From NCBI RefSeq assembly GCF_016653465.1, contig NZ_NHSQ01000085.1, forward strand, positions 1 to 59,885: a stretch of DNA of 59,885 nucleotides, read 5' to 3'. This DNA comes from Thiocystis minor. Its GTDB lineage: Bacteria; Pseudomonadota; Gammaproteobacteria; Chromatiales; Chromatiaceae. The notes beneath the pieces are model-generated. The model made no database searches. It was not told the origin of the DNA and was given only the letters and a program-made list of their open reading frames with translations. Position 1 is the first letter of the stretch. Each line of letters opens with the position of its first letter. Position numbers and translations under genes: made by a program. This document shows positions 51,023 through 56,962 of the stretch, piece by piece.

Positions 51023-53731
51023 TCAGACTTCGCCAACCAATTGTGCCCGCCCATCCTCGTGAACCGTCTCCAGACGCACGGCAAACCCCCACAGACGTCG
51101 AATATGGCGCAGCATCTCATTGATTGAGTCGCCCAAGGGTCGACGATGATGCGAAAAATGACGCAGGGTCAGCGAGCGATCTCCCTGTCGATCCACCTTG
51201 AAGACCTGAATATTCGGCTCGCGGCTACCGAGATTATATTGCTCCGCGAGCCTTAGACGCAGCGCCCGATAGCCCTGTTCCTCGTGGATATCCGTCACTT
51301 CCAGGTGCTCTTCGCGATCGTCGTCACGAATCGCGAAAAAATGGAAATCCCGCATCAGGGTTGGCGATAAATACTGGGCAATGAAGCTTTCGTCCTTGAA
51401 GTTGCGCATGGCGAAATCCAGCACCCGGCGCCAATCGCCGCCAGCGATGTCCGGAAACCATTCGCGATCTTCAGCGGTCGGCCGTTCGCAGATGCGGCGG
51501 ATGTCGCGCATCATCGCAAACCCCAGCGCATAGGGATTGATGCCATTGTAATACGGCACATCGAATGACGGTTGAAACACGACTCCGGTATGGGATTGCA
51601 GAAACTCCATCATGAAACCGTCGGTGACAAAACCATCGTCATAGAGATGGTTCATGAGGGTGTAATGCCAGAAGCAGTTGTGATTGATGAAACAGGAGGC
51701 CTTGTAGGCATGCGAGCGTTCCACACTGAAATCGAAGACTGGCCCCTCGTCGTCTTCGATGGATTCGATCGTTGTCAGATCATCCTTGTCGAGGAACCAT
51801 TGGACGGATTCCAGCGTCTCCCGCAGGCGTTGACGCTTGTACGTCAGGCGAAAACCGATCTGCTCCGCGAAGCGTCTGACATCCTCGCCAGTGATGACGA
51901 GCCGGAAGATCCCATCCCGCTGTGGCCGCAAGGAGCTGACGATGCCCAGATTCAGGATCAGTAGTTGCTCGATCAGCAACAACTCGCGACTCTTGCTGAC
52001 CAGGATGACCTGACGATCCTGTTTCGAGACACAGCCGTCGGTATCGAAATGCCCGCGAAGAAAGGCTTGGACCACGGGGCATGGCGATTTGAGGATGATC
52101 TCGGGCACCTGTTTGCGCGCCGCGGCGCCCCGACCGGTCGCCATCTGGAACGTCTGTTGGAACAGGCGTGCCAGGGTGGTGCTATGAATCGTCGAGTTGA
52201 AATGGTTACGATCCGCTCGGCGTGAGGCCTCGACACCGAAGTTGTCGAACAGCGTTTGCTCAAAGAAATCCAGCAACTCTGGATCCTGCGAGGTGAGATT
52301 CACGCGGCGGGCATCGACGAATCCATCTCCGATCACCTGACCAAGCACTTCGGCCAGATCAGGGTTCAGGGTCCGCGGGCGTCGGGGTAGATCCTCGGGA
52401 CTCTGCAAGGAGAGCGGCAGTTTCGGGTCGACCAGAATGGCCTCCCACTCGTCACGACAGGCCTGCAAGCGGGTGACCGTCTCGGCGCGAACCGACAGAC
52501 CTGGAGCGGCGCGATGCCATTTGTAATAGGTGCTGGTCGACACCTCATGCTGATGACAGACCTCAGCGATGCGGGGTCGGGCCAACAGATTGTAGTCGAT
52601 GACGACCTCGGTCTCGGCGAACAGACCTTGGCCGCGCCGGATCTCCACGCGATCCCCAACCTTCAGATCCTGGAGTTCGATCCAGTCCCCGGCCACCAGG
52701 ATTCGGTGATCCGCGCCGCCATGCAATTCATAGCCGTGACGAGTACGGATGCGGACACGCCGCTTGGCCGGGTGCGCAAACCAGTTGATAACCCGATTGC
52801 CATCCTCGACGCACCCCGAAAACTGCGATTCCACGAGTTCCTGGGCGCGTATCAGCCCCCGATCCGTGACGATCAAGGTCTCGCCCGTCACGCAGGCCCA
52901 ACCCTCGTTCATCACCTGGGTCTGACGCTGCGGATAAAAATACTGGCCGATCTTGCGCACGATCCGCACGATTTCGCGCTGCCAGGGTTCGAGCAGCGGC
53001 GCGTTTTTCTCGATGAAATACAGCAGATTTTCCTGCGGTTCCTCGGGCCAGCGCGATTCCTGCCGGGCACCCTCAACACCGCCCACCGTGGGAATGGTCC
53101 GCCAGAGATCGTTGATCTGCGACTGAAGATAGGTCTCGCGCTCGCGCTGACGGCGCTGCTCCTCCGCCATGCTGAGCGGAGCCGGGCGTTTGTAGCGGTC
53201 GACGCCATGATTCATCAGCGCATGGCAGGAATCGAGCAGCAGCTCGACCTCCTCCTGACCATAACGCTCCTCGCATTGAGCGATGTACCGGCGGGCAAAG
53301 ACCAGATAATCGATGATGGCGTCGGCGCTGGTCCAGGTGCGAAAGAGATAATTCCCCTTGAAGAAGCTGTTATGACCATAGCAGGCATGGGCAATGACCA
53401 GCGCCTGCATCGGCAGCGTATTCTCTTCCATCAGATAGGCGATACAGGGATCGGAATTGATCACGATCTCATAGGCCAAACCCATCTGGCCGCGCCGATA
53501 GGTCTGTTCGGTCGCGACGAATTGCTTGCCGAACGACCAGTGCGGATAATTGATCGGCAGACCCACGGAGGAATAGGCGTCGATCATCTGCTCGGAGCTG
53601 ATCACCTCGATCTGATTGCGATAGGTCTCCAGCCCATAGACATTGTGGGCGAGATTCCCGATTTCCTGATCGAAACGCTCCAACAGAGGGAAAGACCACT
53701 CCACGGATTCGGAAATGATGTTCTGGCTCAT
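51023..53731 (-). CDS. SpoVR family protein interrupted by an in-frame intein
   Basis: The 902-residue reading frame is a SpoVR/YcgB protein (about 496 residues after splicing) with a 406-residue intein in the middle. The N-extein (1-279) runs to QVMNEGWA and the C-extein (686-902) resumes at [17 protein letters not shown]. In usual SpoVR proteins this is NEGWATFWHYT, so the intein sits inside the most conserved motif. The gene overlaps yeaH by four bases (ATGA) with AGGAGG upstream, in the order prkA-yeaH-spoVR. In E. coli, SpoVR-like YcgB is linked to stationary-phase functions with YeaG and YeaH. Splicing would be needed for function. Confidence 0.95.
51677..52894 (-). other. Intein with LAGLIDADG endonuclease, inside spoVR
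   Basis: Residues 280-685 of the SpoVR frame. Block A: Cys1 in [20 protein letters not shown]. Block B: GADHRIL with the conserved His. LAGLIDADG motifs at intein residues 183-192 ([10 protein letters not shown]) and 278-287 ([10 protein letters not shown]), both with the acidic residue. Block [16 protein letters not shown] with the His. Block G: CFINHN followed by +1 Cys, giving the penultimate His and terminal Asn. An extra helix-turn-helix-like stretch (103-135) lies between block B and the endonuclease. All splicing residues of a class 1 intein are present, so it should be active. Confidence 0.95.
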
Positions 53732-54996
53732 GCCTCCTGCCTCTTGAAGAGTTCCCGGAACACGGGAAAGATGTCATCCGCGCCGTCGATTTCCTGCATG
53801 GCGAAATGAGAATAAGCGGCCATGACTTCCTGATAGGCATACCAGAGACTTTGATGCTGACGCGGCGTGATCTCGACATAGGCGTAATAGCGCATCAATG
53901 GCATGAGTCGATCGATCAGGAGATCCCGGCAGACGCCCGAATCCGAATCCCAGTTATCGCCATCCGACGCCTGGGCGGCATAGATGTTCCAGACGCTCGG
54001 ATCGTAACGCGCGCGCAGAATCTCATCCGCCAGATTCAAGGCGCTGGACACCACCGTGCCGCCGGTCTCGCGGGAATAGAAAAACTCCTGCTCATCGACC
54101 TCCTGGGCAATGGTGTGATGACGGATAAAGACCACCTCGATCTTGTCGTAATTACGCTTCAGAAACAGATACAGCAGGATAAAAAACCGCTTTGCCAGGT
54201 TCTTGCGTGCCTGATCCATGGAACCTGAAACATCCATGATACAGACCATCACCGCCTTGCTGGTCGGCTCCGGCTGTTTCACGAAACTCTGGTAGCGCAG
54301 ATCGAAGGTATCGATAAAGGGCAGCGCGGCAATGCGGGTCTTGAGCCGGTCGATCTCCTCGCGCAAGGCGCACAGTTGCGGGTCATCCTCGGCGACTCCG
54401 GCGGCCAGCAGGGTCGCGATCTCGGATTCCAGTTCACGAATGCGCGCACGCAGGGGCGCCCCGATGGCGGTCCGGCGTGCGATGGCGCCTTTCAGCGAAC
54501 GGACCACATCGATATTCGAGGGCGGGCCGACGGTCGCATAGCCGGCACGGATCGATTTGAATTCGGTCGTGCCAATCAGTTGATTACGCACCAGATGCGG
54601 CAATTCAAGATCCTCGAACAGCAGATCCATGAACTCCTCGCGCGACAACTCGAAGACGAAATCGTCGTCTCCCTGTCCATCTTTGCTGGCCTTCCCCTGT
54701 CCCGAACCCTCGCCGCCGCTCTCCGGACGACGCAGGCGATCACCCTTCTGAAAATCCTTGTTGCCGGGGTGCACCAGGTCACGGACCCCGCCCTTTCCAT
54801 GGTGGAACACCGGCTCCGAAATATCCCGCGACGGAATCCCGACCTTCTCGCCGGAATCGATGTCGGTAATGCTGCGCCGGTTGACCGCATCCGCCACGGA
54901 ACGCTTGAGCTGGGTCTTATAGCGTTTGAGAAAACGCTGGCGATTGACCGCGCTCTTGTTCCTGCCATTCAGACGCCGGTCGATGAAGTTTGACAT
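53728..54996 (-). CDS. yeaH: YeaH/YhbH family (DUF444) protein
   Basis: A 422-residue protein always found with PrkA. It begins [20 protein letters not shown] and has the VWA-like metal site [14 protein letters not shown] (DxSxS). A Gly/Ser/Lys-rich stretch (about 85-115) precedes the folded core. It lies 43 bases after prkA and overlaps spoVR. The exact role is unknown; in E. coli the partners YeaG and YeaH support survival of nitrogen starvation. Confidence 0.95.
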
Positions 54997-55039: not shown

Positions 55040-56962
55040 TCAACTCGACTTCCTGACCCGCAGATACCACTCCGACAACAGCCGCACCTGTTTTGGCGTA
55101 TAGCCCTTATCGGTCATGCGATCGACAAACTGATCGTGCTTCTTTTGTTCGTCCACCGATGACTTGGCATTGAACGAGATGACTGGCAGCAGATCCTCGG
55201 TATTGGAAAACATCTTCTTCTCGATCACCACGCGCAGCTTCTCGTAACTGGTCCACTTCGGATTCGCCCCGCCATTCTTGGCCCGTGCCCGCAGCACGAA
55301 GTTCACGATCTCGTTGCGGAAGTCCTTGGGATTAGAGATGCCCGCCGGCTTTTCGATCTTCTCCAGCTCCTCGTTCAGCGCCACGCGATTCATCATCTCG
55401 CCGGTATCCGGATCGCGGTATTCCTGATCCTGAATCCAGTAATCCGCATAGACGACATAGCGATCAAAGATGTTCTGTCCGTACTCCGCATAAGACTCCA
55501 GATAAGCCGTCTGCAATTCCTTGCCGATGAACTCGGCATAGCGTGGCGCGAGATATTGCTTGAGATAACTCAGATAGCGTTCCTGGGTCTCCGGCGGCAA
55601 TTGCTCGCGGGCGATCTGGCGCTCCAGGACATAGAGCAGATGGACCGGATTGGCCGCCACCTCGGTATGATCGAAATTGAAGACCTGAGACAGGATCTTG
55701 AAAGCGAAGCGGGTCGAAATTCCGGACATGCCCTCGTCGACCCCGGCATAGTCGCGGTATTCCTGCACCGACTTAGCCTTGGGATCGGTGTCCTTCAGAT
55801 TCTCGCCGTTGTAGACGCGCATCTTGGAAAAGATGCTGGAGTTCTCCGGCTCCTTGATGCGTGTCAGGGTCGAGAACTGAGCCATCATCTCCAGGGTGCC
55901 GGGCGCGCAGGGCGATTCGGCGAGCGAGCTGCCGCGTAGGAGTTTGTCGTAGATCTTGACCTCTTCGTTGACCCGCAGACAGTAGGGCACCTTGACGATA
56001 AAGACCCTGTCCAGAAAGGCTTCGTTATTCTTGTTGTTGCGGAAGGTCTGCCATTCCGACTCGTTTGAGTGAGCCAGAATGATCCCCTGGAAGGGCAACG
56101 CCGAGAGCCCCTCGGTGCCGTTATAGTTGCCTTCCTGGGTCGCGGTCAGCAGCGGATGCAGCACCTTGATCGGCGCCTTGAACATCTCGACGAATTCCAT
56201 GATGCCCTGATTGGCGCGGCACAGCGCGCCGGAATAGCTGTAGGCATCCGCGTCGTTCTGCGCAAACCGCTCCAACTGACGGATATCGACCTTGCCCACC
56301 AGCGAGGAAATGTCCTGATTGTTCTCGTCCCCCGGCTCGGTCTTGGCGATCGCAACCTGCTCCAGCATTGATGGATACAGCTTCACCACCTTGAACCGGG
56401 TGATATCGCCACGGTACTCCTGCAACCGCTTCACCGCCCAGGGCGACATGATGGTGCGCAGATAGCGCGACGGAATCCCATAATCCTCTTCCAGAATGGG
56501 GCCGTCCTCCTCCGGCGAAAAAAGCCCGAGCGGTGACTCGAACACCGGCGAACCATGAATGGCGTAGAAAGGCCGCTCCTGCATCAGTTCCTTGAGTTTT
56601 TCGGCCAAAGATGACTTGCCTCCGCCCACCGGCCCGAGCAGATAGAGGATCTGTTTTTTCTCCTCCAGACCCTGGGAGGCGTGCTTCAGATAGGACACCA
56701 GATGCTCGATCGGTTCCTCCATCCCGTAAAACTCGGAGAAGGCCGGATAGCGCCGCAGCATCTTGTTTTGAAAGACCCGGCTCAAGCGCGGATCGTCGCG
56801 GGTGTTGACCATCTCCGTCTCGCCGATCGCCATCAGCAGACGCTCCGCGGCGCCCGCATAGGCGCTCGGGTCCGACTTGCAGAGTTGCAGATACTCGTCC
56901 AGGCTCAACACCTCCTCGCGGGAGGCTTCATACCGTGCCTGGTAGCGTTCGAAGATCGACAT
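55040..56962 (-). CDS. prkA: PrkA serine protein kinase (YeaG-like)
   Basis: A 640-residue protein with an AAA+-like N-terminal domain ([16 protein letters not shown], about 105-120) and a C-terminal kinase-like PrkA domain, close to the 644 residues of E. coli YeaG. It starts [20 protein letters not shown], and the C-terminus ends in the family pattern [11 protein letters not shown]...[20 protein letters not shown] strong sigma-54 type element lies about 115 bases upstream. It is the first gene of prkA-yeaH-spoVR. Confidence 0.96.

Follow-up and report, generated by a model that had tools for sequence, protein, structure and literature searches.

We present evidence that the spoVR gene of Thiocystis minor carries a full-length intein of the class 1 type, which is very probably spliced out of the SpoVR protein and persists as a homing mobile element. 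The gene is located in a window of 59,885 nucleotides, which is the whole stretch of DNA that was analyzed. The anatomy of the insert, the existence of intein-free sister genes, the patchy distribution, and the purifying selection are read from sequence; from these, we infer splicing, cutting, and homing. An intein in SpoVR had been proposed in the initial annotation of the window, and the proposal is upheld by profile matches, by nine bacterial copies at one codon, and by the intein-free sister genes. The annotation had also suggested that no such intein is known from earlier work, and none was found for SpoVR, YcgB, or stage V sporulation protein in the open-licence literature, preprints excluded. 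As far as the open literature shows, SpoVR is new as an intein host protein, as are the insertion sites and the unusual residue in block B; inteins as such are known.

An intein-like insert interrupts a conserved motif of SpoVR

The in-frame insert of 406 residues was originally placed at residues 280-685 of the precursor, which is exact to the codon (Table 1). Its ends are as first described, with CVTGETLI directly after NEGWA and INHN directly before CFWHYT, and two LAGLIDADG-like motifs can be seen in the sequence between them. Without the insert, SpoVR has a computed length of 496 aa, in line with the size that had been predicted. The computed masses are 105 kDa for the precursor, 58.7 kDa for SpoVR without the insert, and 46.3 kDa for the intein. 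The extein is readily recognized: PF04293 matches both of its halves (E 2.3e-170), PF24755 and NCBIfam NF008737 also score over their cut-offs, and the SpoVR profile match falls into two pieces at the insert point. The site had been described as one of the most conserved in the protein; across 60 aligned SpoVR rows, NEGxA never varies at N, E, G, or A. An intein that interrupts an almost invariant motif would have to splice to be tolerated. The default reading of the sequence is a mobile element that is obliged to splice, and its splicing is predicted. The annotated placement of spoVR in the PrkA operon is confirmed: prkA, the DUF444/yeaH gene, and spoVR are consecutive on the minus strand.

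Known intein chemistry provides a scheme for this process. C1 would attack the A279-C280 bond, the +1 Cys would receive the N-extein, and N406 would cyclise, thereby setting free the 496-residue SpoVR and the 406-residue intein. The LAGLIDADG domain, perhaps together with the helix-turn-helix, would cut intein-free spoVR at the NEGWA-C/T-FWHY codons, and the cut allele would gain a copy of the intein.

Table 1. Features of the spoVR precursor gene, its predicted intein, and the neighboring genes. Positions refer to the window.
Feature	Position	Strand	Basis
spoVR (ycgB-type) precursor gene, 902 aa, intein-bearing	51023..53731	-	open frame and profiles
SpoVR N-extein, 279 residues, ending MNEGWA	52895..53731	-	translation
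SpoVR C-extein, 217 residues, CFWHYT first	51026..51676	-	translation
C-extein +1 Cys codon	51674..51676	-	sequence
Predicted intein, 406 residues, C1 to N406	51677..52894	-	profiles and alignment
N-terminal splicing (Hint) part, blocks A and B, residues 1-95, approximate limits	52610..52894	-	NCBIfam intein_Nterm, alignment
Block B, G60-A-D-H63, Gly where TxxH usually has Thr	52706..52717	-	alignment
Helix-turn-helix segment, residues 107-143, HTH_Tnp_1-like, slightly below Pfam cut-off	52466..52576	-	
LAGLIDADG homing endonuclease part, residues 166-369, approximate limits	51788..52399	-	Pfam LAGLIDADG_3; Foldseek I-DmoI, TliVMA
LAGLIDADG motif 1	52313..52348	-	alignment
LAGLIDADG motif 2	52028..52063	-	alignment
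C-terminal splicing part, block F (D388, H395) and block G (H405-N406)	51677..51787	-	alignment
DUF444 (yeaH-type) gene, directly upstream of spoVR, 4-base overlap	53728..54996	-	
prkA kinase gene, first of three (prkA, yeaH, spoVR)	55040..56962	-	

Profile and structure matches of the intein

Profiles for splicing and endonuclease domains, which the initial annotation had named as a check, all match over their cut-offs. Pfam Intein_splicing (PF14890) scores 37.9 bits (E 1.9e-9, cut-off 35.8), NCBIfam intein_Nterm (TIGR01445) scores 26 bits (cut-off 24.5), and Pfam LAGLIDADG_3 covers two stretches with 85.4 bits (E 3.3e-24). The segment related to HTH_Tnp_1, which sits between the splicing and endonuclease parts, scores 22.7 bits within the precursor and 23.8 bits when the intein is taken alone (cut-off 24.1). 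The best matches in a sequence search of the PDB are the TliVMA intein and PI-PkoII. As in TliVMA (7qss/7qsu), PI-PkoII (2cw7), and PI-PfuI (1dq3), the splicing blocks of the window's intein flank a double-motif LAGLIDADG endonuclease; it differs from all three in its SpoVR host, in a block B Gly instead of Thr, and in the HTH_Tnp_1-like segment between its splicing and endonuclease parts.

The intein is poorly modeled in both AlphaFold2 structures (mean pLDDT 63.5 and 52.4). For each of them, Foldseek ranks the TliVMA intein (7qsu) first, with E 2.9e-9 and 1.6e-14, and the TM-scores of the matches are low. These matches agree with those from sequence, yet prove little; among the 50 Foldseek matches listed, no SpoVR-like fold is recognizable. 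A search of the plasmid collection gave a single match, 25.7% identical, in Streptomyces.

Other intein-like frames were encountered in the window's genome and family. In the window's own genome, contig C51 (L033) has an apparent small intein in GyrA that passes the Pfam cut-off, and contig C77 (L035) an apparent larger one in GuaB that falls short of it and was recognized by eye. In MutS of G002 and G003 of the same genus (L005, L006), the Walker A motif seems to be interrupted by an intein (GGK^C...HN^STYM). Visual inspection of other frames in the family points to inteins in Dcd, ribonucleotide reductase, and gyrase B; the Dcd frame L025 of G002 apparently contains two.

Intein-free relatives and patchy distribution

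Comparison with close relatives had been recommended at the outset and favors a mobile element. Six other genomes of the window's genus were searched, of which two have SpoVR, and both genes are intein-free and uninterrupted. Their exteins are 98.2% identical (L080, NEGWACFWHY unbroken) and 95.0% identical (L079, NEGWATFWHY unbroken) to that of the window. Such near-identical sister genes without the insert indicate that it is a real mobile element.

The insert is patchily distributed in the families that carry it. It is present in four (G000, the window's own genome; G078; G184; G193) of the 93 Chromatiaceae genomes in which SpoVR was matched. These 93 were drawn from 210 genomes, and their matches include fragments as well as a SpoVR type that is more distant. 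Five of 29 Competibacteraceae genomes with a SpoVR match, from 39 searched, also carry it; one of the 24 insert-free matches is a short fragment. The insert occupies the identical codon in nine genomes, one of which is that of the isolate Allochromatium palmeri DSM 15591 (G184), presumably a member of the Chromatiaceae. Six of the nine genes are seen whole. The C-exteins of G265 and G268 contain two N and a frame break beside them, which most likely represents an assembly gap, and the gene of G269 ends off its contig.

Intein-free loci confirmed at the motif itself number 73 in the Chromatiaceae, where the +1 residue is Thr in 61, Cys in 11, and Ser in one, and 23 in the Competibacteraceae, where it is Thr in all. 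The Cys of the intein-bearing genes is thus a minority residue that is also found at empty sites. Seven full-length SpoVR genes of genus g4 (L114-L118, L121, L122) are intein-free with a +1 Cys, for which a scar or a ready site is alike possible. Two further interrupted genes were rejected as intein-bearing: SpoVR of G187 (L081) is split into two frames at profile position 208 and has no insert, and that of G028 lies in pieces on two contigs.

A pattern for the C-terminal junction was used to scan 84,980 species genomes, which may omit the window's own. All seven matches are in insert-bearing SpoVR, namely those of five Competibacteraceae MAGs, A. palmeri, and G193 (a MAG). The extein half of the pattern fits 63 of 72 Chromatiaceae, 23 of 23 Competibacteraceae, and 19 of 80 viral SpoVR loci; as a result, nine of the 72 Chromatiaceae-type genes would escape the genome scan, and the pattern is insensitive for viruses.

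Phylogeny and possible movement of the intein

The extein tree comprises 97 SpoVR rows; the other three of the initial 100, among them one with the intein, were too short and were left out. On this tree, the eight intein rows need six changes, five of which are forced by starred branches, and 9 of 500 label shuffles were equal or better. Between the window's intein and the Competibacteraceae copies, identity is 75-77%, as compared to 67-74% for the extein; the lowest extein value (G268) is reduced by its broken C-extein frame. Intein and extein identities are 75% and 84% with G078 and G184, and 63% and 84% with the decayed G193. These ratios hint that the intein moved between the Chromatiaceae and Competibacteraceae after the two families split. 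Recent horizontal transfer between the families was rejected, since the clash it should produce between the intein and extein trees is absent. The intein tree separates the copies of the two families on opposite sides with a support of 100/100, and recent traffic between them is therefore unsupported. Apart from the identity ratios and the patchy distribution, nothing speaks for movement. Around the insertion site, identity to the other intein-bearing alleles is not clearly raised over any stretch, as it would be in a co-conversion tract.

Inteins in viral SpoVR

Inteins are also found in the SpoVR of viruses. The megaphage record LR756504.1 (636 kb) has a mini-intein of 129 residues (L037, 5817-6203) at NEG^CATF, a site that lies upstream of the window's by two residues; NEGCATF is unbroken in a further two megaphage records (LR745206 and LR756502). 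The mini-intein shares GGxxHkIL and FINHN with the nine bacterial copies. Its N part is 37.5-42% identical to theirs over 88 residues, and its C part is 58-61% identical over 31 residues to six copies and 41-46% over 37-49 residues to three. Unlike the window's intein, it is without an endonuclease and is inserted at NEG^C rather than NEGWA^C. The mini-intein-bearing sequence also occurs in a 288-kb viral contig, in which homologues of PrkA and YeaH and spoVR are located close together; these are related to the window's PrkA (64% over 551 residues) and YeaH (38% over 429). A megaphage (loci L037 of LR756504.1 and L164) is therefore one that encodes PrkA, YeaH, and SpoVR homologues near each other, with a spoVR that bears a mini-intein related to the window's.

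A different intein, of 253 residues, is present at LDAY^SSVG in two near-identical viral genes (L207 and L208, 4139-4897). It resembles the window's intein in its host gene, in its insertion into a conserved motif, and in ending with HN followed by Ser, but its site is another and its similarity to the window's intein family is limited to a weak match of 23 residues. Among the best 80 of 164 further viral SpoVR loci, two have the DAY^S intein, 78 are of ordinary match length, and none has an insert at the NEG motif. The scan of viral contigs found no full-length intein of the window's type, and the junction pattern, insensitive as it is for viruses, had no match there.

Both viral sites also fall in conserved motifs. 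There are at least three intein sites in SpoVR (NEGWA^C, NEG^C, and DAY^S), and others may exist; on the basis of these three, SpoVR is a recurrent intein host. A comparable case is found in passages of PMC5050341, in which mycobacteriophage proteins have inteins in conserved motifs. Those inteins are likewise inserted at several points in active centres, are patchily present, and have phages as their proposed carriers; they reside in other host proteins, and SpoVR is absent from the main text of that source.

Splicing residues and the block B variant

C1, the block B His, the block F Asp and His, the terminal HN, and the +1 Cys are aligned in all nine bacterial copies, and C1 is also present in the phage mini-intein. 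D388 and H395 are invariant both in the nine bacterial copies and in the seven rows of an alignment that includes the phage. The unusual residue is in block B, which reads GGADH in the nine bacterial copies and GGENH in the phage: the His is kept, and Gly replaces Thr in 10 of 10. Thr is found at this position in 30 of 30 other intein_Nterm matches read at class level. These 30 loci were among the listed matches of a profile that hit 47 of 274 genomes of the class; their intein status is by profile match, and because they are mostly the better-scoring matches, the sample leans to canonical inteins. The block B Thr is named as assisting the first splicing step in part of PMC10663303. With Gly in its place in all copies, this step may be slow, and we hypothesize that the substitution tunes splicing.

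A stronger version of this idea is that the intein still homes and also serves as a conditional switch, in which the block B variant and cysteines near the junctions keep SpoVR inactive until stress, and so regulate the PrkA-YeaH-SpoVR system. We consider this unlikely. The split of a nearly invariant motif and the block B substitution fit such a role, as does Cys401, which is close to the C-terminal junction in all nine bacterial copies; conditional splicing of other inteins is reported in PMC6195587. Against it, 89 of 93 and 24 of 29 SpoVR-matching genomes, fragments included, have no insert, with the empty site confirmed at the loci described above; the endonuclease, which a pure regulator would not need, is under purifying selection; and the phage copy is without Cys401. 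Also unlikely is the combined proposal that SpoVR is an intein hot spot, with at least three sites in bacteria and phages, whose NEG/NEGWA lineage fixed the Thr-to-Gly change that slows or gates splicing and thereby makes SpoVR maturation state-dependent.

Selection on the splicing and endonuclease parts

To judge from sequence, the window's copy is similar to class 1 inteins, and its homing endonuclease looks intact. Its LAGLIDADG motifs carry VIGDG and DTDG, with the acidic catalytic residues present, and both catalytic Asp are kept in seven of the nine copies. In G078, Gly in motif 1 replaces the first. In G193, both are replaced, by Gly in motif 1 and by Glu in motif 2; its helix-turn-helix is partly deleted, and its intein measures 389 residues (406 in the other eight). 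Compared with G184 and G267, the window's copy has dN/dS values of 0.13 and 0.11 for the N splicing part, 0.00 (with dS saturated) and 0.03 for the C part, 0.15 and 0.19 for the endonuclease, and 0.30 and 0.24 for the helix-turn-helix. Eight pairs were compared in all. Their dN/dS ranges from about 0 to 0.17 in the splicing parts and lies at 0.09-0.14 in the extein. For the endonuclease and the helix-turn-helix, the values are 0.07-0.19 and 0.06-0.30 in the six pairs that do not involve G193, and 0.26-0.36 and 0.52-0.89 in the two that do. The N splicing part of G193 is at 0.08-0.16, and this copy combines a decayed endonuclease with splicing blocks that are still under purifying selection. 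Homing inteins typically retain splicing and occasionally lose the endonuclease. Conserved splicing parts combined with endonuclease decay in G193 are the usual picture for such an element.

The same data make it very unlikely that the insert is a decayed one that no longer splices and leaves the host with a SpoVR that is dead or that has a long loop. No copy retains the block B Thr, endonuclease residues are lost in two copies, and the C-extein frame is broken in G265 and G268, where an assembly gap is the probable cause. However, none of the nine bacterial copies has lost C1, the block B His, D388, H395, H405, N406, or the +1 Cys, the reading frame is open through both junctions in each, and the low dN/dS of the splicing parts and extein holds for all eight pairs.

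An assembly chimera is barely credible: the window is from a 198-contig assembly and most of the named copies are MAGs, but the identical codon is used in nine genomes including an isolate, and the composition of insert and extein is similar (GC 0.60 and 0.56). Chance or artefact is ruled out by the same insert at one codon in nine genomes. A homing intein that splices is the reading we retain.

Implications for SpoVR and its host operon

The biochemistry of SpoVR is not settled. Parts of PMC12456014 describe RNA binding by SpoVR in B. subtilis and cite a role in the spore cortex and heat resistance, and spoVR expression is given as reduced in a prkA mutant in a portion of PMC13001217. The initial annotation had raised splicing as a control step in this stress pathway, which is possible but unsupported; a mobile parasite would account at least equally well for the patchy presence and for the purifying selection on the endonuclease.

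With this finding, a poorly understood stress and sporulation protein joins the intein hosts, with three sites in conserved motifs. Inteins tend toward the functional centres of their host proteins. The insertion sites thus mark SpoVR residues that are worth testing. The fixed Thr-to-Gly change in block B provides a concrete case for how much that residue matters in splicing. In addition, a single host gene is seen without the intein, with the full intein and its endonuclease, with an endonuclease in decay, and, in phage, with a mini-intein. If the proposal of a hot spot with gated splicing were true, a giant phage with prkA, yeaH, and an intein-bearing spoVR would move a stress module together with its switch.
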